Shown here: positions 3,068 to 28,013 of the stretch, one piece after another
Position numbering within the stretch: the stretch's first letter is position 1
How the letters are laid out: the number at the start of each line of letters is the position of its first letter
IMG/VR virus record: IMGVR_UViG_3300032053_000175
Coordinates: 1 to 41,162 of that record
Strand: one strand, 5' to 3'
Length of the DNA: 41,162 nucleotides
Source of the DNA: a virus
The notes under the pieces: model-generated
What the model was told of the DNA's origin: nothing
What the model saw: the letters and a program-made list of their open reading frames with translations, nothing else
The model's database searches: none
Position numbers and translations under genes: made by a program

Positions 3068-4156
3068 TTAGGCGATTATTGCCGAATTGTCCACATCATG
3101 TATCCGGGCTAGACCCTTTGTGGAACTGAGCAGTACCGACCCATAACTGTCAAGCCTCATGCCTCCAGCGTTGTAGTCCTCTAGTCGGTCCCACGTCCAC
3201 AACTCATACAGGTCTCCCTCACCTTCAGTACCTCCATAAGCGAAACAGACTCCAGGCTGCTTAGCCAATGCATTACCGTACTTCATGCCAAAGAGGGAGA
3301 ATGTCCTGTCTGAACTGTAAACTGCCCTCTTGTTGCTGGTTGCTCCTGTGCCGGTATTGCTTTCCTCATCGACCAGGTAATCAGTTCGGACTATGGGTAC
3401 ACCGGCAAAGAACATGATTGGTCGACCTATCTCGTTCATGCCACGGGTCAACAGGCTGATGTCACCATGCACGATTGTTTGCAGGGTTTCACCGGTATCA
3501 GTCCTGAACCCGTACTCTCCATAGGCTGCATCGAAGCGGATACCTATCTCTGGAGGTACCCAAATTTCATCGGTGCCAAACAGCATGGCATCTAGCATCC
3601 TTCTCACTAAGGACAGCTGCAAGCCCTGGTCCTCATTGTCTAGGTTGAGGTCGGAGTATGCAACGACTGAGGCTGAGTTGGGTGTGCCTCTCTCAGCCAC
3701 TAATGCATGGAGACCATCCCATTGAGTTGGGGTGCCCCCATACGTGGTATCGGCATAGATTATCCGGTCACCACAACGCCGCTTTAGACCTTTCTCGCAC
3801 TCCAGCAACACCTGTGCCTTGTAGTCGTTGTAGGTGCCATAGATGTTCTGGACATAGCGGTCGAGTTTTCTCTGGATATAGAGGTATCTGAGGGTTGACT
3901 CCCTCTCAGTGTACTCTACATCTTCACCCCAGACCAATTGGTCACCAACACCAGCTTCAACCACAGCACTTTCGACGGTGGTGTTTTCCTGCAACCACTC
4001 GATTTTGAGGCCGGTACCAGCAGCCTGGGCTACAGGTAGTCTGTCAATGGGGTTATTTCTTTTGATGTCCTCTTCAAAGACACCAGGAATCTTGTGGGAT
4101 TGTGTTAACTTCTGTGCTTCCGCAAGGGTCTTCCAATGTCCCCCGCTACTTGCCAT
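3068..4156 (-). CDS. Major capsid protein, probably HK97 fold
   Basis: 362 residues with a GGAGG site 7 bases before ATG. It follows the scaffold gene by 12 bases, the classic order. The pattern fits phage major capsid proteins: helical N-terminus, a central alpha/beta part (LVRRMLDAMLFGTDEIWVPP), a segment describing an E-loop-like region (QENTTVESAVVEAG), and a C-terminal beta strand GLARIHDVDNSAIIA. No protease-processed prodomain is evident. The scaffold is a separate gene. I assign it by gene order and overall style, not by a diagnostic motif. Confidence 0.85.
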   Translation of the reverse strand: MASSGGHWKTLAEAQKLTQSHKIPGVFEEDIKRNNPIDRLPVAQAAGTGLKIEWLQENTTVESAVVEAGVGDQLVWGEDVEYTERESTLRYLYIQRKLDRYVQNIYGTYNDYKAQVLLECEKGLKRRCGDRIIYADTTYGGTPTQWDGLHALVAERGTPNSASVVAYSDLNLDNEDQGLQLSLVRRMLDAMLFGTDEIWVPPEIGIRFDAAYGEYGFRTDTGETLQTIVHGDISLLTRGMNEIGRPIMFFAGVPIVRTDYLVDEESNTGTGATSNKRAVYSSDRTFSLFGMKYGNALAKQPGVCFAYGGTEGEGDLYELWTWDRLEDYNAGGMRLDSYGSVLLSSTKGLARIHDVDNSAIIA

Positions 4157-4897: not shown

Positions 4898-7800
4898 CTA
4901 TTCCCTAATTCCATAGTCCCTTCTATACTGGCTGTAGAGTTGCTGTGCCTGAGTTGATAGAGTGGTACTGGTTATTTCAAAGAACAGGAGCCAGGCGTCC
5001 AGTTCAGGACTAAGCCTTCTCAGATTCTCGCCTGTCTGCCTAACAAGTTCCTGATAATATGAGATTAACTTTCTACCATTTGGTAACAGCACTTGTTGAA
5101 TTTCGTCCCGTTCGGTTGGGGAGCCAAATATCCAACGCTTAATTAATGCTTGTTGGTCGGTATCAAACTGTGTGGATAGGATGGCCTCCTGTCTTCTGTT
5201 GTAGCCTCTAAAATACCGGTGGCTGATTTCCCACCTCAACTTTTCAAGGTCAGTCATGTTCTTGGTGATTATGGCTACAAAGTCCTCCCGCTGGACACCT
5301 TTCAATGTATTTACTATGGCATCTATCTTGAGGAAGTAGCCATCCCAATCGTCTATCAAAGCTCCGGAGTTAGGGTCTACTACCTTCTCCAGTTGGATAC
5401 TGTAGTAGTAGTTGAGGAGTTCTTCTGCTGGATGCTGGATTGGAGGAAGCTGCTGCCTCTTCTCGGCTCTGGTTATTAGTCCTTCTCTGATTGTACCATC
5501 TGGTCTAGTAACATCATCCATGTCCAGGGCTACCCCTTTGTACCTCTCAGTTTCGGATAGGTCATTGAAGAAATTGGCGTATTTGGCTCTAAGGTCAGAC
5601 CGACTACGATTCCACTGTTCCATGCTTATCCAGCCTTCTGAACCTGTTGGCAGTTTTACTCTACGGTCTAAGTCCTCTTGCTCCGCCTTGACTTGGTCGG
5701 CATAATCTCTAATGGCTCGGAAGAACTCCCTACGAATCTTGTCCTCTTCTTGCCAGGCTGTAGGCATCAAAGTGCTGAACACTCCACTATGGTACTTGAC
5801 CGCATCCAGTTCACTGAGTACGTCCTGTTGTAATGGGTCTAGCATGGCATAGTCACCTATTCTAAAGCCATGACGGCGAATCCATAACTGGTCTTTCTCG
5901 GTATAGCCGGTCATTTCCTCGATTAGTTTGGCAGAGGCTTCCCAGGCTTCAAGTTGTTCCTCGGTTCTAATGCGTAGGATACCAGACTGCTCCATGAGGA
6001 CTCCACGCCAACCATAACCTTGAATTGCACGGGTCCAGACATCCTTTTCTTCGGTGGTTAAGTCCTGTCCTTGTTGCATTTTGTCCCAAATATCCATGCC
6101 ATTAAATAGCTTTTGTTCCCGTTGGCAGATGGCATTGGCTAGTTGGATGGTACCATAATTGCGATATGGTTCTGGAAGTATCTTGTCGAGCAGGACTTTG
6201 GCAGGTTTAGAATCTGGAAATGCAGCTATGTAGGCATTGAGTGGAGTCTTAATCCAGGCTGGTAGTAACTCACCTAACTGCAATCCTCCTCCAGCTGATG
6301 TACCACCAGTTAGTTTGAGAAGGTTCATCCAGGCTGCTGGGTAGAAGCCAAATCTGCTGTACCAGTCGAAGAACTCGGAGACTTGAGGAAACATATCGTA
6401 GTATTCGGGATAGTCCCTCTTAATGAGGCGGGTCATCCCACCCATGAAAATGGTGCCTCTCAGTGGATTGAACTCTAGGCTGGTTCCTGGTATATGGACA
6501 TAGCCATCCTCAGTGTTGTCCATGTAGGTACCCCAAGCCTTGAATATGCCAGGCATACGGATAGAGGCTCTGGGTAGCCAAAACAATCGGTGCAACTCAT
6601 ATGTCCAGAATGGATAAATACTTCGCATGATGGCAGTGGAGGCGTTTTCGTTGGTGTAGTCGGCCCAGTCCTTATAGTATTCTTTGGAGGCTTTATCTGC
6701 TGCGGACTGTTTGGACTTTTGGAAACTATCACTAAGTCCAACGACTTCATATTCTGCCTTTGCTTTTGTAGGCTTTATAACACCGGCGATGACCCTAATT
6801 TCGTCCTCTAATGCCTTAGCCTGTCTCAGAGCAATCCTCTTATTAGGAGCAGTTTTGACCTGTTTCATAACCTCATTAAATTGCTGGACCACAGGACTAT
6901 CCGGTTGTACCTTTTTAGCGGCCTTTAATAAGGCATTGTATTCTCTCTCTAAGGATTCGGTCAGTGGTTCAGCACCTACAGTAGTTTCTATAAATGGCAT
7001 CTTTGTAGGAACCTTGGTACCAAATTCAGAACTAAACTCCCTCTTTAACCTAACCTTCAACCCACTAGGTAAGTCTTTCCACTCCTTGTCAATATATGCT
7101 ATAGGTTCATCCCATTGTCCTATCACACGGCGCTTGGACATCATAGGAATAATATTCTTCCATACATCCGATTCGGATAATTCAATAGGCTTAGATGTGA
7201 ACTGCCATTTCTTACCTACAGATTCAACTGTCCACTTACCACCACTATTATCGGTGATTATCCAAAACCCTTCAACCTGTGGGTGTGCTTCCCAGGTAAC
7301 TGCGCCAACCAAATCTGCCAATTCGTCGGCAGTATACAATTTTTTGGTTGGCATAACCCTTTCACTCACAATCCTCTTGGTTACATAGCCTGGAGTTGCC
7401 TCTAGTTCATCTGCCAGGGTGGTAATGAACCTCTGGAAGTTGTCTGCTATACCTTCAGGCAACCCTTTAGTTCTGTATATGCTCCACAACTCGTCTTGTA
7501 GGGACTTTAACTCCATTAGATGAGGTTCCATAACACTGGCTAACTCAGGATTCATACGCATATCCCTCAGAGTGTAGTCATATACCTCACCAATGGCTTC
7601 ATCGGTCCAACCTAGCTGGGCAGCCGACTTTTTTACTCCTCTAGCCATTCGCTCTGCCTGAGCCTTGACCTCAGTAACGAATTCCTGTTTAGACTTCAAG
7701 GTCATGGTCTCCATGTTCATGACTGCTTGTGGCATTTGAGCTGGATTGCTATGAAACAAGGTGGCCACATCTACTTTGGAGAGCTTTCTACCAGTGGCAT

Positions 7801-10800
7801 CAATGATTGGTGGAGGTGGACCCGCCATACCTAGAAATTCGGATAGGGTATTGGATTGGTCAATCAGCCTCAGTTTCATTTGGGATTGGGTAGTTATCCT
7901 CTCATAATGGGCTTTCATCTGGTCGGCTTTGAAGGTTGACCAGGCAGTGGATTTCTGCTCACCACTAAGGGCTTTAATCCTCAGTATCTCTGCTGCCTCG
8001 GTTGTTCGGCGCTTTGCCCACCAGTCGGCAAGGTATCGTTGCTCGTCAGTCCAGGCTGATAGCCAGTTGTTGATGGAGGATTGTTCAGCTGGAGTGAATG
8101 GAAGTTTGCGTTGGGTCTTAGGGAAATACTCCTCAAAGAAAACTTTTGTTTTTGTATCCATAAAATTGGTGGAAGTCATACCTCTTGTATAGTTAGAAAA
8201 ATCAGTAGCGAATTCCTCAAATACATCCTCTGGTATCTGTCCAGCCCCAATAGGGAAATCCTTAACACTAGCATAGTTGGCAACAATATCCGTATTGGGA
8301 ATGGAATGTGCTAGTTCATGGTAGATAACCTCAGCATCAGTAAGAGCATCCCAATTTTTGGCTGACAATCTTCCAAGCTTTGGGTAATATCCAGCAGCCA
8401 AAGTTTGGTTTGGATTAAGCCACACTTCACGCAAATCCGACTTGATACTGACTGGTAAATCCTCTACAATCTTGGTAAATTTAGCCTTGACATTATCTGG
8501 TATGCCAGGACTAAACCTTACCTTACTCCAATCAATTATACTCTCAGGCTTGGTCATGGTCAACCTAAGCTTATCATCCAACTTATCCAAACTCTCCCTC
8601 ATCTGTTTGGTGTAATCCGCTAGTCCTTCATACACTCCACCAGGCTCCACGGTATACTTTGCCCTCCACTCGTTGAAGTCAAACCACTTCATACGTTTGG
8701 ACATTTCCGACTCTAACTCATTCATAGCCCGAATAACATCATCAGTGGAGCTACCATAGAACCTCTGCAACTCCTGTAGTTCCTGCATCATACCTAGAAA
8801 TTCATCTTTGGTTCTGGCCTCCATGCCCAAAATACCGTCAACCCTCTCCTGCAGCTTGGTTTTGTAGAACTCAGGTGTATGGACAAAGTAATCATACATA
8901 CCTGACTTGATATTGTCTGTGGCTTCATTTATCCCAAAGCCTTTGTTCTTCCATAATGAACCATCGCTAGCCGACTGGATTAGAACATCTTGAAAGGGTT
9001 CAGGAATGTTAGTGTATTTGCCTACTGCCTCGGCTACTCTACCACCGGAGATTTTGTCAGAGAAGGCAATGTCCTTGCTGATGCCTGGGTCCATCTTAAT
9101 CCTATCCGCTATGATGTCATCCAGCATACTTCGGGTGTTGGCTGGACCAGAGATGGCCCGCTCTAATAGTTCTTCCTTCAACTCATAGCGAGAAAGATTT
9201 AAAGCCTTTAACAGGTCATCACCCACAGCTTTTGAGGCATCGTCAATTTTCCTAGCTAGGGCAGAAACTACCTGACCAGCTTCCTCTTCTGGCAGCAAGG
9301 TCATGAACATCTTGCGGAGGTAGTCTGACCTTTGATATAGTCCTATCCTGCTGGGCCAATCAATGAAGAACTTGCCTATTGGACCACCGGACAGGACATT
9401 ACGCCATTTAGCAAGGTTCTTGGACGTTTTCTCGATACCAAGGAAACTAGGGACTTCTCCGGCCATTTCTATTCGTGGAGTGCCGGTCATAATTTCTAAT
9501 GGAATGTTAAGTCCTCCCATTAGCCTTTGCGCTCTGGCTGCGGGATTAACCACGGTGATGAGCTTGTTTTTCCTAAATGCAGTTATTGGATTGAGAGGAA
9601 CCTGCCTAGCTGATAGCTGCTTGATATAGCCTTCAAGGATATTGCCTGGCCCATAGGCACTAAACACCAGATACATTCTGGCACCTGGGGTAACTACCCA
9701 TCTATCCATAGTGTTGCGCCAGGTATTCATAATGGCATACTCAACCCTGCTGAACTGCTGGGCAATACGACCGGACATTTCAAGGTTGTGGGCAGCGGCG
9801 TGGAGGGCAGTATCCAAATATGCCTCTTGACTGTGGTTAAAAATGTTGGTTAATATCTCCGGAGTAACCTTAGCCTTGCCTAGCAGTTCATCCGATGTGG
9901 ATAGACTAACTCTGAGCAGTTTGTTGACCTCAGCAGTTGCTTTCCTAATTGCTGGTTTGGTATCGTCTATTCCTAATGTCCTGAGTAGGAATGGGACAGC
10001 TTCTTTCTTGGATAACATTCCCGCACCAGACTTGTCTATTTGACCATTAACTATGGAGGATACATTCAGCAGCATTTCTTTGGAAACTTCTACCTCAGAA
10101 CCCAGATTCTTGGCTATGGTTTTAACTGCATCCTCATCAATCAAGGTGGTTCTAAGCAGGGCTCTACCTGCATCAGCTTTGGCTCCTACTGCTCCAGGTC
10201 GTTTCAATACCAAGTCTCTGGCTTCAATTAGGAGCTTTTGTGCCTGAGTTAATGGTATCTTGGCTGGTAGTCTACCCATCGTAGCGGACTGTAGATACCT
10301 AAATGCAGCTATCATATCCTTGCCAGCGTAGGACTTAGAAGCCATCATAGGAGTTTTTGGTATTAGCTTACCTGCACTTTTAATCTTGTCAAATATCAGG
10401 ACGTCCCAGGCTTTCAACCAACCGGCTTCAAACTTGCCCACAACTGGGCCAACGTACTTACCTATCTTAGGTATGGATGTAGTTATATACTTAGGTACAC
10501 CAGTTCCTACCCAGGTGAGTGGGTCTGCTACCCACTCAAATATTAGGTGGTCACAGAGTCCAAGCTCTACATTCTCGAAGGCTTCGCCTCCAGCGTGCCA
10601 CCAATCAGTAGTATTTCGGGCTTCTCTGTATACTGCTAGAAACTCCTTCTCGCTCTTGGTAAGGTATTGCGGCTTCCATGCCTCCCATGCCTCTGCCCTC
10701 ATTCGGTATAACCATGCTCCCCAAGGAGCAGTCCATTCGTGGTACATTTTACCGGCTAAATCTAGGGCGGATAGGGCTGGCTGTGCCACAGTTTGCAACA

Positions 10801-11878
10801 GTATATCATCAATACCCATCTCTGGTAGTTTTGCTTCCTCTAGTCCTTGCTGAACGGCATCTTGATTGCTGGACAAGGTTGACCATAGAAGCTCGATTTG
10901 CCTAGTGTAGGCTTCTACGCCTTCCAACTCAGTTAATACTTCTGGTGGTACACCTGCCTCCTCATACATCTTTATGGCATCTTCTGGAGTGGATAGACCA
11001 GTCGGCAGAGTTGGCTCAGGACTAGTGGCAGACAGCATCTTGAGGATATTTTCTATTGTTGCCTTCTGTAGTGTGATTGGTCCTGTATACCGAGGCTCCT
11101 TGGCTAACAGGGCAATAGCCTCAGTATAGTTAATTTCCTCAGCCTTGGTTCCCTCAGGCAGTCCCAATGTAGCACTATAGACCTCATTGAATATCCGCTT
11201 TAGGTCTGGGTCGTCCTTGCCTATCTTACTGAACCAGGTAATGGATTCACCTTCCTCTGTTTTCATTTCAAACAGGTCGTCATAGGAAGTAACCTTACCC
11301 ATCTGGATAAACGCTGGTAATGCTTCATACATGGTTTGGTAGGTAATGGCTATGGATTTCTCTTTGGATATCTCCTGCAACCTGGTCACATAGAAATTGG
11401 ATTGTATTAGTGCCTTTCCATACAGTAGTGAGGCTCTAGGGTCTATAACATGACCGGGACGGCCTAGCCTTAGGTAGAAAAAGGCTGCAATACTGGTTAT
11501 TACGGTTGGGGCACCAATCTTATTCATCATGTTCTGGCGGAGGTAGATAGCCTTCTCTAGTTCTATTTCCTCACGAATCAGGTCAGCCTCATGTTGCTTC
11601 CAATATAGGTTACTCTTGGCTACACCTACAAATTCTTCTGGAACTTCACCAGCCTCTAGTTGCAGACGGAGTTCCTCAGCACCGGCTATCCTCTGGAAAT
11701 TCTCTACCAGGGACTGCTTAACCCTCAACTGTTGGAGAGGTAGACTAGTCTTAATCCTCTGTTCTGCTGGTAATTTATAGTATTCCTGTTCAGCCCTGGC
11801 CTGTGCAGCCTTTAGTTGCCGTTCAAACTCATCCTGTAGTTCTTTGGTAGGTGAAACAAATTCTTTACCATTAGGCAT
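4898..11878 (-). CDS. Giant virion-associated protein with zincin-type HExxH motif (polyvalent/internal virion protein candidate)
   Basis: 2,326 residues, 17% of the genome, between portal and scaffold, with GGAGG 6 bases before ATG. Mostly helical with long charged stretches. Residues 1187-1191 are HELAH, and about 30 residues later comes EEFATDF (E1221/E1222). HExxH plus a downstream Glu is the zinc-metallopeptidase (gluzincin-like) arrangement. Around residue 1756 is PFWTYELHRL, preceded by DYTNENASTAIMR. This resembles a motif (DY..lt..er..mrr..PFyTW) seen in very large phage head proteins and polyvalent proteins. Likely packaged in the head and ejected with DNA, or a head-completion protein occupying the usual minor-head-protein slot. 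Protease activity is inferred, not shown. Confidence 0.8.
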   Translation of the reverse strand: MPNGKEFVSPTKELQDEFERQLKAAQARAEQEYYKLPAEQRIKTSLPLQQLRVKQSLVENFQRIAGAEELRLQLEAGEVPEEFVGVAKSNLYWKQHEADLIREEIELEKAIYLRQNMMNKIGAPTVITSIAAFFYLRLGRPGHVIDPRASLLYGKALIQSNFYVTRLQEISKEKSIAITYQTMYEALPAFIQMGKVTSYDDLFEMKTEEGESITWFSKIGKDDPDLKRIFNEVYSATLGLPEGTKAEEINYTEAIALLAKEPRYTGPITLQKATIENILKMLSATSPEPTLPTGLSTPEDAIKMYEEAGVPPEVLTELEGVEAYTRQIELLWSTLSSNQDAVQQGLEEAKLPEMGIDDILLQTVAQPALSALDLAGKMYHEWTAPWGAWLYRMRAEAWEAWKPQYLTKSEKEFLAVYREARNTTDWWHAGGEAFENVELGLCDHLIFEWVADPLTWVGTGVPKYITTSIPKIGKYVGPVVGKFEAGWLKAWDVLIFDKIKSAGKLIPKTPMMASKSYAGKDMIAAFRYLQSATMGRLPAKIPLTQAQKLLIEARDLVLKRPGAVGAKADAGRALLRTTLIDEDAVKTIAKNLGSEVEVSKEMLLNVSSIVNGQIDKSGAGMLSKKEAVPFLLRTLGIDDTKPAIRKATAEVNKLLRVSLSTSDELLGKAKVTPEILTNIFNHSQEAYLDTALHAAAHNLEMSGRIAQQFSRVEYAIMNTWRNTMDRWVVTPGARMYLVFSAYGPGNILEGYIKQLSARQVPLNPITAFRKNKLITVVNPAARAQRLMGGLNIPLEIMTGTPRIEMAGEVPSFLGIEKTSKNLAKWRNVLSGGPIGKFFIDWPSRIGLYQRSDYLRKMFMTLLPEEEAGQVVSALARKIDDASKAVGDDLLKALNLSRYELKEELLERAISGPANTRSMLDDIIADRIKMDPGISKDIAFSDKISGGRVAEAVGKYTNIPEPFQDVLIQSASDGSLWKNKGFGINEATDNIKSGMYDYFVHTPEFYKTKLQERVDGILGMEARTKDEFLGMMQELQELQRFYGSSTDDVIRAMNELESEMSKRMKWFDFNEWRAKYTVEPGGVYEGLADYTKQMRESLDKLDDKLRLTMTKPESIIDWSKVRFSPGIPDNVKAKFTKIVEDLPVSIKSDLREVWLNPNQTLAAGYYPKLGRLSAKNWDALTDAEVIYHELAHSIPNTDIVANYASVKDFPIGAGQIPEDVFEEFATDFSNYTRGMTSTNFMDTKTKVFFEEYFPKTQRKLPFTPAEQSSINNWLSAWTDEQRYLADWWAKRRTTEAAEILRIKALSGEQKSTAWSTFKADQMKAHYERITTQSQMKLRLIDQSNTLSEFLGMAGPPPPIIDATGRKLSKVDVATLFHSNPAQMPQAVMNMETMTLKSKQEFVTEVKAQAERMARGVKKSAAQLGWTDEAIGEVYDYTLRDMRMNPELASVMEPHLMELKSLQDELWSIYRTKGLPEGIADNFQRFITTLADELEATPGYVTKRIVSERVMPTKKLYTADELADLVGAVTWEAHPQVEGFWIITDNSGGKWTVESVGKKWQFTSKPIELSESDVWKNIIPMMSKRRVIGQWDEPIAYIDKEWKDLPSGLKVRLKREFSSEFGTKVPTKMPFIETTVGAEPLTESLEREYNALLKAAKKVQPDSPVVQQFNEVMKQVKTAPNKRIALRQAKALEDEIRVIAGVIKPTKAKAEYEVVGLSDSFQKSKQSAADKASKEYYKDWADYTNENASTAIMRSIYPFWTYELHRLFWLPRASIRMPGIFKAWGTYMDNTEDGYVHIPGTSLEFNPLRGTIFMGGMTRLIKRDYPEYYDMFPQVSEFFDWYSRFGFYPAAWMNLLKLTGGTSAGGGLQLGELLPAWIKTPLNAYIAAFPDSKPAKVLLDKILPEPYRNYGTIQLANAICQREQKLFNGMDIWDKMQQGQDLTTEEKDVWTRAIQGYGWRGVLMEQSGILRIRTEEQLEAWEASAKLIEEMTGYTEKDQLWIRRHGFRIGDYAMLDPLQQDVLSELDAVKYHSGVFSTLMPTAWQEEDKIRREFFRAIRDYADQVKAEQEDLDRRVKLPTGSEGWISMEQWNRSRSDLRAKYANFFNDLSETERYKGVALDMDDVTRPDGTIREGLITRAEKRQQLPPIQHPAEELLNYYYSIQLEKVVDPNSGALIDDWDGYFLKIDAIVNTLKGVQREDFVAIITKNMTDLEKLRWEISHRYFRGYNRRQEAILSTQFDTDQQALIKRWIFGSPTERDEIQQVLLPNGRKLISYYQELVRQTGENLRRLSPELDAWLLFFEITSTTLSTQAQQLYSQYRRDYGIRE

Positions 11879-13916: not shown

Positions 13917-15499
13917 TTCCAGCCATGCCTACCAACATACCCACGTCGTTTTGGTTTCGGGTCTCCACACATTAGACCTATAGCCCATGCCATGAACAGG
14001 TCGTTGGCTCCAACTACTTCTACTTTATCACCTACTATCCTATGGTTGCGCATCTGCCTGACCAATTCTATGTCAAAACAGATGGAGTCTGGTAGGTATC
14101 TGTCCACAGCCTGTAACATAAAGTCCTTGTTCTTGGAGGTAGTCAACCAACCTGGCTCAAGGCTCTGCACTCCACTGACTATATCCTTTCTGAAATAGAT
14201 AGGTCGGTAGTGTTTGCCTAGCTCAGTGATAGCCAACCCATGACTATTTGCCTCCCAGACTATCATAGCCTTGTTGTAGTGCCTGGAGGCTTTGACAGCT
14301 TTATTCCAGGTGGTCTCTGGTCCATAGAGCCCTGTATCCCTAGCACAGAGCTTAGGGTGATAATTCCCATAATCATCAAGGTCAAAGCAGATAACGGCTA
14401 TGGCATCCTGACTTACCTTAGCCTGACCAGGGTCTATACAGACAAAGTAGGTTTTAGACTTTTCAGGTGGAAACCAGATACTCAAGTTGTCGAGGCTGGT
14501 AGGTGCAGGATAGCACTGGCTAGCCATCTTGTCCAGAGATAACCTATCAAACCGCATATCACCAGTAGACAAGAAACAGGATACATCGTCCTCAGGGAAC
14601 TCCTGCTGAAATAGTAGTACCATTTCACCTGAACGCCTTAGGCTCTCTTTTTCTCTAATCTTCCATCTGCGCCATCTAATCTGGTCAAAGGTCAAGTGAT
14701 AGTTCTGGACTAGCAGTTCTTCCTCTCTGGTTAGTTTGAAGGACTCTACATCGGTATCGGGGATGAACTTCTTGATACGGAAATCTCCCAATGGTATTGC
14801 ATATTCCTTGTGCATAAACCAGGAATAAAAGTGTGGAGTGAATACCGACTTGCCTTCTCTGGCTAGTTGGTACATATCATGGAAGTCATTCTCCTCACCA
14901 CAAGGTGTAGAGTATACATCTACTGTACCGGTCCCATCCTGAGGTACACGGTCTAATGCTGGTGAGACAATGTTCTCCATAGCTTTGGGTGGATAAAACG
15001 CTGCCTCATCAAACAACAGGTGATGGATTGTCTCGGCTCTACCTGCTACAAAACTCCTTGCACTAGCTATGTAAATGGAGCTGGTACTGTGGAGTCTACC
15101 ATTAACATAAAATCTAAAGGTTTTTTGGTAAGTACTGTCGTGGTGTATCTCTGGAAAGCCTGGAATACCCAAACCACTTAGATGGTTATAAAAGAAGTTA
15201 ACCTTAGCCAATAGCCGCTCAGTGATGAAGTCCTCGTACGCCACAAGGACAGTGTTAGTACCTGGGCTGGTCAGAGTGTCTTTCAACCTCTTTGCAATGC
15301 GCTCTGTGGAGAATCCTACCTGTGCTGGCTTGACCCAAATGTCCATACCAGTCTCGGTCTTGTCCACATCGTCCTGTATCTCATTGTAGGTGAATGGGAC
15401 AATCTGACGGGACTTATTCTCCAAAACGAACAGGGTCTCGATATACCTTCTATCATTGAGGATTAAGTCCGTAAAAGCCTCTTTGATATTAACTGCCAT
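13910..15499 (-). CDS. terL: Terminase large subunit (ATPase-nuclease packaging motor)
   Basis: 529 residues. ATPase part: Walker A-like KPAQVGFST (57-65), which has the K-x-x-x-V-G-x-S form of lambda gpA-type terminases in place of GKS/T; Walker B LLFDEA (161-166) with D164 and E165; coupling motif YSTP (196-199). Nuclease part: RNase H-like acidic residues at D356 (CIDPGQ), E416 (VWEANSHG) and D500 (NDLFMAWA). All motifs are in order, so it looks functional. It cuts the concatemer and pumps DNA through the portal. The start overlaps the preceding 81-residue gene by 11 bases with a GGAG site. Confidence 0.95.
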   Translation of the reverse strand: MAVNIKEAFTDLILNDRRYIETLFVLENKSRQIVPFTYNEIQDDVDKTETGMDIWVKPAQVGFSTERIAKRLKDTLTSPGTNTVLVAYEDFITERLLAKVNFFYNHLSGLGIPGFPEIHHDSTYQKTFRFYVNGRLHSTSSIYIASARSFVAGRAETIHHLLFDEAAFYPPKAMENIVSPALDRVPQDGTGTVDVYSTPCGEENDFHDMYQLAREGKSVFTPHFYSWFMHKEYAIPLGDFRIKKFIPDTDVESFKLTREEELLVQNYHLTFDQIRWRRWKIREKESLRRSGEMVLLFQQEFPEDDVSCFLSTGDMRFDRLSLDKMASQCYPAPTSLDNLSIWFPPEKSKTYFVCIDPGQAKVSQDAIAVICFDLDDYGNYHPKLCARDTGLYGPETTWNKAVKASRHYNKAMIVWEANSHGLAITELGKHYRPIYFRKDIVSGVQSLEPGWLTTSKNKDFMLQAVDRYLPDSICFDIELVRQMRNHRIVGDKVEVVGANDLFMAWAIGLMCGDPKPKRRGYVGRHGWKW

Positions 15500-19281: not shown

Positions 19282-19310
19282 TTGACAAGAATCAGCCTTT
19301 ATGATATAAT
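19282..19310 (+). promoter_or_regulatory. Main early promoter (rightward)
   Basis: -35 TTGACA (19282-19287), 17-bp spacer, -10 TATAAT (19305-19310), with an extended TG at 19302-19303. This is a near-consensus sigma70 promoter. It drives the first early operon starting at 19339 and points away from the late promoter 114 bp to its left. Confidence 0.9.
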
Positions 19311-20889: not shown

Positions 20890-20918
20890 TTGACAAGCGT
20901 AGTACCTAGTGATATACT
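20890..20918 (+). promoter_or_regulatory. Promoter for the 191-residue gene
   Basis: -35 TTGACA (20890-20895), 17-bp spacer, -10 TATACT (20913-20918) with extended TG at 20910-20911. The spacer contains TAGTAC-CTAG, a partial match to the 17-bp operator. The transcript would have a leader of about 190 bases. Confidence 0.8.
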
Positions 20919-21897: not shown

Positions 21898-21927
21898 TTG
21901 ACAGAATCAATACCACCATGATATAAT
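21898..21927 (+). promoter_or_regulatory. Second early operon promoter
   Basis: -35 TTGACA (21898-21903), 18-bp spacer, -10 TATAAT (21922-21927) with extended TG at 21919-21920. It drives the long run of small genes from 21957. An operator-like near-palindrome abuts the -35. Confidence 0.85.
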
Positions 21928-26394: not shown

Positions 26395-26423
26395 TTGACA
26401 AACTGTGCACCCTATGATACAAT
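26395..26423 (+). promoter_or_regulatory. Promoter for the ribbon-helix-helix operon
   Basis: -35 TTGACA (26395-26400), 17-bp spacer, -10 TACAAT (26418-26423) with extended TG. It stands in the only non-coding gap between the ATPase operon and the next genes and would start transcription about 35 bases before the ribosome site of the 47-residue regulator. Confidence 0.75.
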
Positions 26424-26462: not shown

Positions 26463-26606
26463 TTGAATGAAAAACGACTCCACATAATGGTTGGTGGGCT
26501 AACAGGAGAACAAGTTAAGGCAATCAAGAAGGTTGCAATAGACGAAGGTAAGAGCTTGAGTAAGATGGTCAAGGAATTTCTATTAAGTAAAATAAGGGAG
26601 GAATAA
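26463..26606 (+). CDS. Ribbon-helix-helix (Arc/CopG-type) regulator, 47 residues
   Basis: Start TTG at 26463 (an ATG at 26460 is too close to GGAGG). The sequence LHIMVGGLTGEQVKAIKKVA, followed by DEGKSLSKMVKEFLL, shows a short beta strand, then two helices with the typical 'D-x-G-x-S-x-S-x-x-V' turn of MetJ/Arc/CopG repressors. Such proteins bind DNA as dimers through the strand. It has its own promoter directly upstream, so autorepression is likely. It could be the repressor of the 17-bp palindromes. Its stop overlaps the start of the next gene (TAATG). Confidence 0.7.
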   Translation: MNEKRLHIMVGGLTGEQVKAIKKVAIDEGKSLSKMVKEFLLSKIREE

Positions 26607-27346
26607 TGGCAGAGCTAAACCAACAAGAGGTACTAAGCCAACTAAAAACAAGAGGATTTGAAACCGGAGGATTCCGTAGTCCGCTAAGGTATTTCCGTGG
26701 CAAGATGGACAGCATCACGGGTAGCATGGTCCAGCGTGGACAGATGAAACAGGCAAGGCTGGAGGTAAACTACAACTTCTCGGATATTGAGGTGTTTGAA
26801 TCCACTGAGCCTTACCCATTCCCTGTGGCACAGGTTTCCATGATGCACTCTAACCGAACCAAATCTGGCATGGGTGTCCTCGGTGCCAGCATGGACAAGA
26901 TTATCAACGCCGGTCTGGATGAGAATTTACCGCAGGAAAAAACCAAGAACCAAGACTTTCTGATTGGCAAGGTTCAGGAGTGGAAGGTCACACCAGGACA
27001 TTTGATGCCTGCACAGGATGAAACTGGTGACTGGACTGAGAAGCCTAGAGAGGCATGGGAAGTGGTGTATGTTGAGGGTTGTGGTGGTGTTCCTCATAGT
27101 GGAGTAGCAGCCTCAACAATGTCTAGCCAGAAGGCACCGGCATCTGGAGTAACTCCAGCACAGGAAGCAGTCAATCTGCTGGACGGCAAAACCCAGCAAC
27201 AATGGAATAATGTGGTATTCCAGAACTCAGCGGTGAAGGGCAGCCCGGAACTAATCAATGCCATTATCAGTGGTACATTCCTACCAGCTATGGAAGCCAG
27301 TGGGCAGGTGACCAAGGATGCTAATGGAGTGTATCACAAACCTTAA
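26606..27346 (+). CDS. Putative DNA metabolism protein, unknown
   Basis: 246 residues with GGGAGG 5 bases upstream and coupled to the RHH gene. The N-terminal ~150 residues are alpha/beta with QEVLSQLKTRGFETGGF and a folded core (ARLEVNYNFSDIEVFES). A Ser/Ala-rich linker (about 170-185) leads to a helical C-terminal domain (AQEAVNLLDGKTQQQW). The layout of a core plus flexible linker resembles phage ssDNA-binding or annealing proteins, but no motif proves it. It precedes the structured RNA region. Confidence 0.55.
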   Translation: MAELNQQEVLSQLKTRGFETGGFRSPLRYFRGKMDSITGSMVQRGQMKQARLEVNYNFSDIEVFESTEPYPFPVAQVSMMHSNRTKSGMGVLGASMDKIINAGLDENLPQEKTKNQDFLIGKVQEWKVTPGHLMPAQDETGDWTEKPREAWEVVYVEGCGGVPHSGVAASTMSSQKAPASGVTPAQEAVNLLDGKTQQQWNNVVFQNSAVKGSPELINAIISGTFLPAMEASGQVTKDANGVYHKP

Positions 27347-27707
27347 CAAGTTAATAGCTTGCTGGTGTCTGTGGTGGGCGCAGATATAAATGGTTGAGAA
27401 TGTAATGACGACCAGCCAGCAAGCCTGCCAGCCACCCGAAAGCCGAAAGGCAACAGGGCACATGATGGTAGAACCTGATACGGACTACTGGCTGGCAGAC
27501 CTGAGCCGAAAGTAGGTTAGTATACCGTGAGTACTAGGCGGAAGGCTAATAAGCTAGAAGTTGTAGAAGCTCGGTAGGCTCAGGTAGTGGTAAAGGGTGG
27601 GGGTGCGAGTAGAGCGAACCACTTACTGGGTTGCTCCCAACTTGGTGAAGTTAAATGAAGTACCAAGCTTACAGCCCCCACCAGCCACTCAGTAAGAGGA
27701 GGTAAAC
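27347..27707 (+). ncRNA. Candidate large structured RNA (about 340 nt)
   Basis: 361 bases with no supported gene, GC-richer than the flanks. Perfect or near-perfect helices can be drawn: S1 27357-27366/27415-27424 (10 bp, one G-U), S2 27425-27434/27489-27498 (10 bp), S3 27499-27507/27577-27585 (9 bp) and S4 27586-27591/27618-27623 (6 bp). Each begins at the base after the last one ends, as in stacked multi-domain RNAs. Inside S2 is CCC-GAAA-GCC-GAAA-GGC-AACA-GGG. 27596-27603/27675-27682 (8 bp) and 27622-27628/27690-27696 (7 bp) would form a pseudoknot next to the ribosome site of the next gene. It does not look like tRNA, tmRNA, RNase P or a group I/II intron core. Confidence 0.7.
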
Positions 27708-28013
27708 ATGGAAGTTGAGAAACTAGCAGAAATAATCAGCCGGTGGCATGGGGAAAAAACTCCCTGTCCTGTATGTCTGAAAATTGCCCAGGAGATTGCT
27801 GGTTGTCTCCGGGTAGAGCCAGTCCAGCTTGAAGTGCTGGGGGATGAGGAAATCTGTAAATCTAATGGTTGTGCCATCAGTGCCAAAGTAGGTTTTACTT
27901 GCCCATATCAAGATAAGAGAGGTTGCTCTATATTTGGAGCAGGTAAACTAATCTCCCAGGCCACCATCGCATACAATGAGGCAAAGGGGCAGTTGTATAG
28001 GATGAAACTATGA
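27708..28013 (+). CDS. Seven-cysteine protein, possible metal site
   Basis: 101 residues with GAGGAGG 5-6 bases before ATG; this ribosome site is touched by the pseudoknot of the RNA region. Cysteines at 20, 23, 33, 50, 55, 65 and 73 (CPVC, CKSNGC, CPYQDKRGC) suggest two zinc or an iron-sulphur site. Helical C-terminus (YNEAKGQLYRMKL). No family recognised. Confidence 0.6.
   Translation: MEVEKLAEIISRWHGEKTPCPVCLKIAQEIAGCLRVEPVQLEVLGDEEICKSNGCAISAKVGFTCPYQDKRGCSIFGAGKLISQATIAYNEAKGQLYRMKL

Follow-up and report, generated by a model that had tools for sequence, protein, structure and literature searches.

The locus analysed here raises the question of what occupies a long gap between two genes of a virus genome. 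The window, i.e. the whole stretch of DNA analysed (41,162 nt), covers positions 1 to 41,162 of the IMG/VR record IMGVR_UViG_3300032053_000175, and the gap extends from 27347 to 27707. These 361 bases had been described in an initial annotation as gene-free and as a candidate new structured RNA made of directly abutting helices, and no sense open reading frame of at least 60 residues overlaps them.

Fold of the intergenic RNA

The minimum-energy fold of 27347-27707 has a free energy of -134.6 kcal/mol (z -4.57), and none of 100 dinucleotide shuffles was as stable. The antisense strand is likewise stable when compared to dinucleotide shuffles (z -3.64), which is to be expected for long inverted repeats. 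The following features, all on the + strand, were assigned:

27357-27424 (+): arm 1, closed by helix P1 at 27357-27366/27415-27424 (in DNA letters GCTTGCTGGT/GCCAGCAAGC); z -4.36 when folded alone
27368-27373/27379-27384 (+): hairpin H1 of arm 1 (UCUGUG/CGCAGA), then UAUAAAUG
27392-27396/27409-27413 (+): hairpin H2 of arm 1 (GGUUG/CGACC), which follows UAUAAAUG, then AG
27425-27498 (+): arm 2, closing helix CUGCCAGCCA/UGGCUGGCAG (in DNA letters CTGCCAGCCA/TGGCTGGCAG at 27425-27434/27489-27498), with a nested CCC-GAAA-GCC-GAAA-GGC-GGG motif inside; based on fold and covariation
27499-27585 (+): arm 3, closing helix ACCUGAGCC/GGCUCAGGU (in DNA letters ACCTGAGCC/GGCTCAGGT at 27499-27507/27577-27585); based on the fold, with A-U and G-C outer pairs in relatives
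27586-27689 (+): arm 4, AGUGG/CCACU at 27586-27590/27685-27689, then GGUGGGGGU/GCCCCCACC at 27596-27604/27674-27682
27697-27702 (+): AGGAGG, the Shine-Dalgarno sequence for the gene that starts with the ATG at 27708, assigned from sequence and located outside the arms in the fold

The first three helices of the initial annotation are present, abut one another and all belong to the minimum-energy fold, as does the nested motif that it had pointed out in arm 2. Its two further proposals, a 6-bp helix at 27586-27623 and a pseudoknot of 8 and 7 bp onto the ribosome site of the next gene, correspond to segments that are indeed complementary. Nevertheless, both the fold and the covarying closing helix favour one nested arm 4 (AGTGG/CCACT plus GGTGGGGGT/GCCCCCACC in DNA letters), for which the short helix and the pseudoknot were rejected, and the 7-bp contact with the ribosome site was kept in none of the relatives inspected. 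The reading of 27347-27707 as an untranslated, sense-strand, multi-domain RNA composed of separately folding and abutting arms is well supported.

Search for known RNA families

No match at curated cut-offs was obtained when the window was compared to Rfam 15, whose families include ROOL, GOLLD, tRNA, tmRNA, group I and II introns and the known ribozymes; only chance-level matches appeared at E values up to 10. Eleven relatives and the pseudoknot core described below gave no family match either, with the real tRNAs of one relative (L316) as the only RNAs detected, and the canonical core had no Rfam match even at E 10. The presumed unlikeness to GOLLD and ROOL was thus borne out as far as Rfam's models of them go. 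A description of the core motif was not found in the literature searched, the coverage of which was incomplete, and it was not seen by eye in the T4 species 1 and 2 RNAs.

Relatives of the RNA

The protein encoded directly upstream (p246, gene at 26606-27346) was used as a bait independent of the RNA. A first protein search yielded five loci, four of them with a diverged arm set after p246, and a wider search yielded 56. Among 46 distinct loci a long helix was found within 190 nt after the p246 stop codon (mean score 10.4 vs 7.9 in shuffled sequences). The helix of the window, CUUGCUGG/CCAGCAAG, is common to some of these loci, and others carry quite different ones such as TGTTAGTCTGGCAGGGTTG/CAATCCTGCCAGACTAATA or ACTGGGTAGGAAT/ATTCCTACCCAGT. 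Plain long hairpins replace the arms in remote p246 loci, and in a few (e.g. L221 and L259) the arm RNA is absent after p246.

Further loci were added by junction and arm sequence patterns. One pattern scan gave mostly chance matches, and BLAST of the window RNA against the phage collection gave none. Among genome contigs, with one genome per species, the single match was L220, from a Dehalococcoidia assembly, and genomes of the class Dehalococcoidia gave one match in 294, again the already known L220. The arm-1 pattern matched once per record in most of 36 records. Arm order is constant (1-2-3-4) among relatives and arm number is variable, with gaps between arms of mostly 0-3 nt and at most 10 nt in the parsed set:

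arm 1 only: L172, L173, L177, L190, L211
arms 1-2: L002, L184, L199, L175
arms 1-2-4: L015, L019, L027, L202
arms 1-2-3-4: window, L005, L012, L037, L220

The window displays the features of this multi-arm family, i.e. the leader described below, abutting arms 1-2-3-4, covarying closing helices and the position behind p246.

Additional arrangements were observed in individual loci. In L187, a second long structured stretch with an arm-2-like GCCAGCCACCCGAAAGGG...GATGGCTGG is located 3' of arms 1-2 and ahead of the next gene. A subgroup with conserved flanks after p246, AAGGAGCCAG...GGGAG and CUCCCUCUGG, comprises L007, L250, L260 and L272-L275; these flanks could form an outer helix enclosing one or several arms, and a Shine-Dalgarno-like AAGGAG precedes it. 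In L211 (4262-4330), arm 1 sits between AAAGGAGGAA and an ATG. A homologue of the small gene ahead of it occurs in L177 without arm 1 behind it, and the L177 copy of the arm is placed elsewhere (positions 4962-5026 and 6712-6894 of L177). Judging by these two loci, arm 1 seems to be mobile.

Covariation of the arms

Some letters are set in advance by the search patterns, and covariation was therefore assessed chiefly at pattern-free positions or in loci found by other means. Compensatory changes were present in each closing helix that was tested, namely those of arms 1, 2 and 4. For arm 1, a hand-trimmed, gap-free alignment of P1 and P2 from 27 relatives with the pseudoknot core contained seven pairs that vary on both sides, with a covariation score of 0.183 vs 0.074 in shuffled alignments and at most 0.053 when the partners were slid. 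In hairpin H1 of the window-type arm 1, strands from the same phage pair better than strands combined across phages (9 sequences, p < 2e-5), the variants being UCUGUG/CGCAGA in the window, UCUCAG/CUGAGA in L187 and UCUGCU/AGCAGG in L026. In the arm 2 closing helix, 6 of 11 pairs vary on both sides (score 0.267 vs 0.151 shuffled). The arm 4 strands of 14 phages scored 9.9 with their own partners and 5.9 when swapped between phages (p < 2e-5). The outer pairs of arm 3 are A-U or G-C among relatives, as read without a formal count. G-U occurs among the standard pair types of the arms, which fits an RNA of the sense strand. Together with the missing Rfam match, the compensatory changes in arms 1, 2 and 4 and the arm-1 pseudoknot of the relatives uphold the proposal of a new structured RNA.

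A pseudoknot core in arm 1

Arm 1 of many relatives is a pseudoknot of the form P1 - UG - UCCNN (5' strand, PK) - A-rich - AACUAUCGG (P2) - loop - NNGG (3' strand, PK) CGAAA - CCGAG - P1', with NNGGCGAAA in the core loop, followed by CCGAG and P1'. The pairing of UCCNN with NNGG in the P2 loop is phage-specific (p about 1e-4 or less by swapping). A search for the core with any P1 retrieved 47 contigs, many of them with unrelated P1 sequences. The core alignment (30 sequences) was made with MAFFT on motif-chosen sequences, so that its invariant letters are partly imposed and those of P1 and the outer PK are not; changes on both sides were found in 14 of its 17 pairs (7/7 in P1, 5/5 in PK and 2/5 in P2), the other three P2 pairs being invariant, and the covariation score was 0.55 vs 0.144 shuffled and at most 0.097 slid.

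A covariance model of the core (R1) gave 37 matches at E values up to 0.1 among 38 loci. A looser pattern, the core minus CCGAG, selected 71 stretches and added 44 contigs, in which R1 matched three times at E up to 0.1 and only in L396 and L397 at E values of 0.01 or less; R1 is therefore selective. The core also occurs alone in diverse phages, and the neighbourhoods of its copies gave no match or partial matches in the phage collection. L397 has two copies (14421-14489, + strand, and 9981-10056, - strand), and L273 has one away from p246 (6108-6180, + strand).

The window arm 1 lies outside the core as modelled by R1 (P1, PK and P2 with UGUCC, AACUAUCGG, CGAAA and CCGAG): its 14.9 bits come from P1 and UGUC only, P1 being retained and the pseudoknot replaced by two local hairpins. 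It is tied to the core family through intermediates that occupy the same position, in L003 (23.5 bits), L026 (21.5 bits), L188 (21.1 bits) and L007 (19.0 bits).

Position in the operon

Three features precede arm 1 in the window:

26395-26423 (+): near-consensus extended -10 promoter of the sigma70 type, TTGACA-17-TACAAT with TG before the -10, about 0.96 kb upstream of arm 1
26606-27346 (+): p246 gene (246 residues), likely an OB-fold/DUF669-type ssDNA-binding protein
27344-27357 (+): leader TAACAAGTTAATAG, comprising the p246 stop codon and a conserved linker; two frames stopped in the window

A promoter of this kind was located within 700 nt upstream of p246 in 31 of 37 loci, when 0.054 was expected for each from the frequency elsewhere on the same strand. 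Between this strong early promoter and the RNA lies the first gene of appreciable size, and the rest of the operon comes after the RNA. Other near-consensus extended -10 promoters in the early region of the window are found at 19282-19310, 20890-20918 and 21898-21927 (+ strand) and at 19168-19140 (- strand), and only the one at 26395 precedes the RNA. The structural genes of the window include an open reading frame of 2326 residues (4898-11878, - strand).

No Pfam or PHROG match was obtained for p246. Its AlphaFold2 model (pLDDT 77.5) matched a viral DUF669 protein by Foldseek (E 2.2e-4) and, more weakly, the ssDNA-binding OB protein PrgE (E 0.016) and SSB (E 0.10), so that the predicted structure makes an OB-fold/DUF669-type ssDNA-binding protein likely. 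Most loci have p246 as the upstream gene, and its place is taken by ERF in L034 (Pfam, 1.7e-27), RecT in L050 (9e-11) and an SSB-type gene in L040 (PHROG, 1.6e-4); where assignable, the upstream genes are, by these sequence matches and the p246 model, of ssDNA-binding or annealing types. The upstream protein of L331/L332 gave a model too poor for structural reading (pLDDT 38). An obligatory association with ssDNA-binding genes, although seen for p246, ERF, RecT and SSB, was discarded as a general rule because it fails for many lone core copies.

The family consensus of the leader, UAACAAYUGAAUAG, carries additional stop codons, and all three frames are stopped in 12 of 23 relatives vs 0.8 in shuffles, these sequences being related and not independent. 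The spacing from the upstream stop codon to arm 1 is most often 11 nt, which, given the size of the ribosome footprint, places the terminating ribosome at the edge of arm 1.

Terminators and tRNA arrays

Other settings were found in some relatives. L175 and its twin L193 contain a promoter, a terminator, arms 1-2, a second terminator and an HNH-type gene in that order; a strong terminator comes after arm 2 of L292 and L294, and about 23 nt separate a promoter from the start of arm 2 in L301/L308. Strong promoters immediately followed by an intrinsic terminator were observed upstream of arm 1 in L173 (about 2200), L177 (4640-4716) and L175 (9284-9355).

Core copies adjoin tRNA genes in L314 (0 nt), L341 (0 and 4 nt), L344 (5 nt), L339 (6 nt) and L352 (12 nt). 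A second, weak core-like arm lies directly before the tRNA-Tyr gene of L344 (2190-2250, - strand). The window has no tRNA, and a program-called tRNA-like unit in the slot of the RNA was found in L220 and L231 only. The former (1037-1124, - strand) is a leucine-like tRNA of class II whose anticodon loop has 6 nt (ARAGORN 'tRNA-???'); it lies 2 nt ahead of arm 1, the acceptor-stem sequence being the same. The latter (3792-3939, + strand) is a 148-nt tRNA-like RNA with a T-arm and an encoded CCA (28.1 bits with the Rfam tRNA model, cut-off 29); the leader UUAACAACNRAAUAGCUUGCUG is repeated in this locus, before the tRNA-like RNA and before arm 1, and the tRNA-like RNA looks like an insertion into the array. 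A tRNA origin of all arms was also considered. It is real in L220 and near the threshold in L231, but T-arm motifs behind p246 are not enriched (one sense, one antisense), and a general tRNA origin is therefore not claimed.

Possible functions of the arms

The reading that we prefer, tentatively and from sequence and position, is that the arms may act in cis, free of ribosomes, to protect the upstream mRNA or to set its end. Ribosomes would finish the upstream gene about 11 nt short of arm 1, with the extra stop codons as backup, and by halting there would leave the arms folded. The compact arms could bar exoribonucleases or form a processed 3' boundary of an abundant p246 mRNA, and p246, probably a stoichiometric ssDNA-binding protein, would thus be produced in larger quantity than the proteins encoded after the arms; a higher number of arms, or arm 1 in its rigid pseudoknot form, might make a stronger barrier. 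This proposal is consistent with the long helix after p246 in the 46 protein-found loci, often with an entirely different sequence, with the position after p246, ERF, RecT or SSB-type genes behind near-consensus promoters, and with a leader that excludes ribosomes. The tolerance of arm number and the exchange for plain long hairpins also fit a barrier, and the arms of L175, L292 and L294, which run straight into an intrinsic terminator as in a 3' UTR, agree with the proposal too. A precedent exists in the RNase E processing site of T4 gene 32 (PMC3014915). However, the conserved unpaired letters of the core (UGUCC, AACUAUCGG, CGAAA, CCGAG) exceed the needs of a passive barrier. In addition, the arms of L175 and L301/L308 follow a promoter with no intervening gene, so that there is no upstream mRNA to protect; the same applies to several copies in tRNA arrays, and many lone core copies are not behind an ssDNA-binding gene.

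Somewhat more doubtful is a broader reading in which the pseudoknot core would be a new, host-independent class of functional RNA, an interchangeable phage module used by itself, within tRNA arrays or at the head of the abutting arms that mark off mRNAs of ssDNA-binding proteins. Under the same broader reading, it might, for example, block exonucleases as a knot, cleave itself as a ribozyme or serve as a substrate in tRNA processing.

By analogy with put of phage HK022 or the EAR element of Bacillus, the nascent arms could bind the elongating polymerase and allow processive antitermination or anti-pausing, with readthrough of a long and partly untranslated operon. The arms lie 0.2-1.3 kb behind strong promoters, occur only in the sense orientation and exclude ribosomes; an intrinsic terminator comes right after them in L175, L292 and L294, they are present in untranslated tRNA arrays, and the wide range of phages would suit a universal partner. 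For comparison, the distance from PR to putR is about 270 nt, and each put RNA consists of two stem-loops of about 70 nt (PMC9378689). Nevertheless, the 2.2 kb that follow arm 1 in the p246 operons are free of intrinsic terminators, the window has no + strand terminator with a convincing U-run after 27.7 kb, the terminators of L173, L175 and L177 include one before the arms, and arm number and sequence are far more variable than in put. This mechanism appears rather unlikely.

Release of the arms, by excision or separate transcription, as small stable trans-acting RNAs like ROOL, GOLLD or T4 species 1 is also an improbable reading. The core copies next to the tRNA genes of L314, L341, L344, L339 and L352, the tRNA 2 nt ahead of arm 1 in L220, the tRNA-like RNA in the same slot of L231 and the short distance from promoter to arm 2 in L301/L308 would agree with it. 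On the other hand, in most loci the RNA exactly occupies the space between two translated genes, with no promoter or terminator of its own, and the lack of T-arm enrichment behind p246 does not favour it.

Very low probability is given to the core being, or descending from, a small self-cleaving ribozyme that would cut the polycistronic or tRNA transcript, with the window arm 1 as a decayed copy. Its length (about 55-80 nt), pseudoknot, many invariant unpaired letters and free P1 sequence match the candidate-ribozyme criteria used in PMC10085705, but no cleavage was seen in that work when ten motifs chosen by such criteria were tested, the core matches no Rfam ribozyme family and the window arm 1 is a variant that lacks the core.

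Regulation of the next gene in cis, by a riboswitch-like mechanism or at translation, is equally hard to sustain. In many loci the RNA ends 5-25 nt from the next Shine-Dalgarno sequence, and the initial annotation had offered control of the 101-residue Cys-rich gene as one option. The downstream gene, however, is not conserved and varies between phages while leader, arms and upstream gene class persist, which argues against regulation of the 101-residue gene in particular; moreover, the arms of the window neither overlap the Shine-Dalgarno sequence nor compete with a terminator, and the proposed ribosome-site pseudoknot is not kept. A role at the DNA level, as a replication origin or as hairpins for packaging or recombination, is scarcely credible despite the usually single copy per phage record and the replication and recombination genes nearby, as the G-U pairs suit a sense RNA and are mismatches on the opposite strand, the orientation is always sense to the flanking genes and ribosome exclusion has no meaning for DNA.

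Relation to known systems

The arms form a new RNA family of a known kind, structured phage RNA of unknown function, and its distinctive features are a row of interchangeable abutting arms and a widespread core. As in put/EAR, a short series of stem-loops lies close to where a phage operon begins, in sense and presumably acting in cis, and the family differs in the absence of a sequence or Rfam match, the pseudoknot core, the presence of up to five arms and the downstream terminators, which are mostly absent. ROOL and GOLLD are also phage-encoded structured RNAs of unknown function that are often near tRNA islands (PMC12286853), whereas the arm RNA is far smaller, has a variable number of modular arms in an mRNA gap and matches no Rfam family. 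Another phage RNA without a known function is T4 species 1 RNA (rnaC), which belongs to a tRNA cluster and has a T-arm as in some relatives, but it lacks by eye the AACUAUCGG/CGAAA/CCGAG core.

Structures between genes that set unequal expression are known in bacteria as intergenic mRNA stabiliser or processing hairpins, and the arms resemble them in their location; to our knowledge, these hairpins have no conserved pseudoknot core or copies in tRNA arrays. In T4 gene 32, which encodes a phage ssDNA-binding protein, the mRNA likewise has an autoregulatory pseudoknot and is processed at a conserved RNase E site where the ssb coding sequence ends (PMC3014915). However, the pseudoknot of T4 precedes the start codon of its gene and the arms come after p246, on its 3' side, which places them apart from gp32-type sites, characterized by a pseudoknot upstream of the ssb start.

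A phage RNA that is backed by covariation, recurrent across diverse phages and yet absent from Rfam is a clear experimental target. Its location behind ssDNA-binding genes and in tRNA arrays links it to two basic tasks of phages, and the core is small and easily made, and can be assayed in vitro for cleavage, nuclease resistance and antitermination, which makes the question of this orphan phage RNA directly testable.
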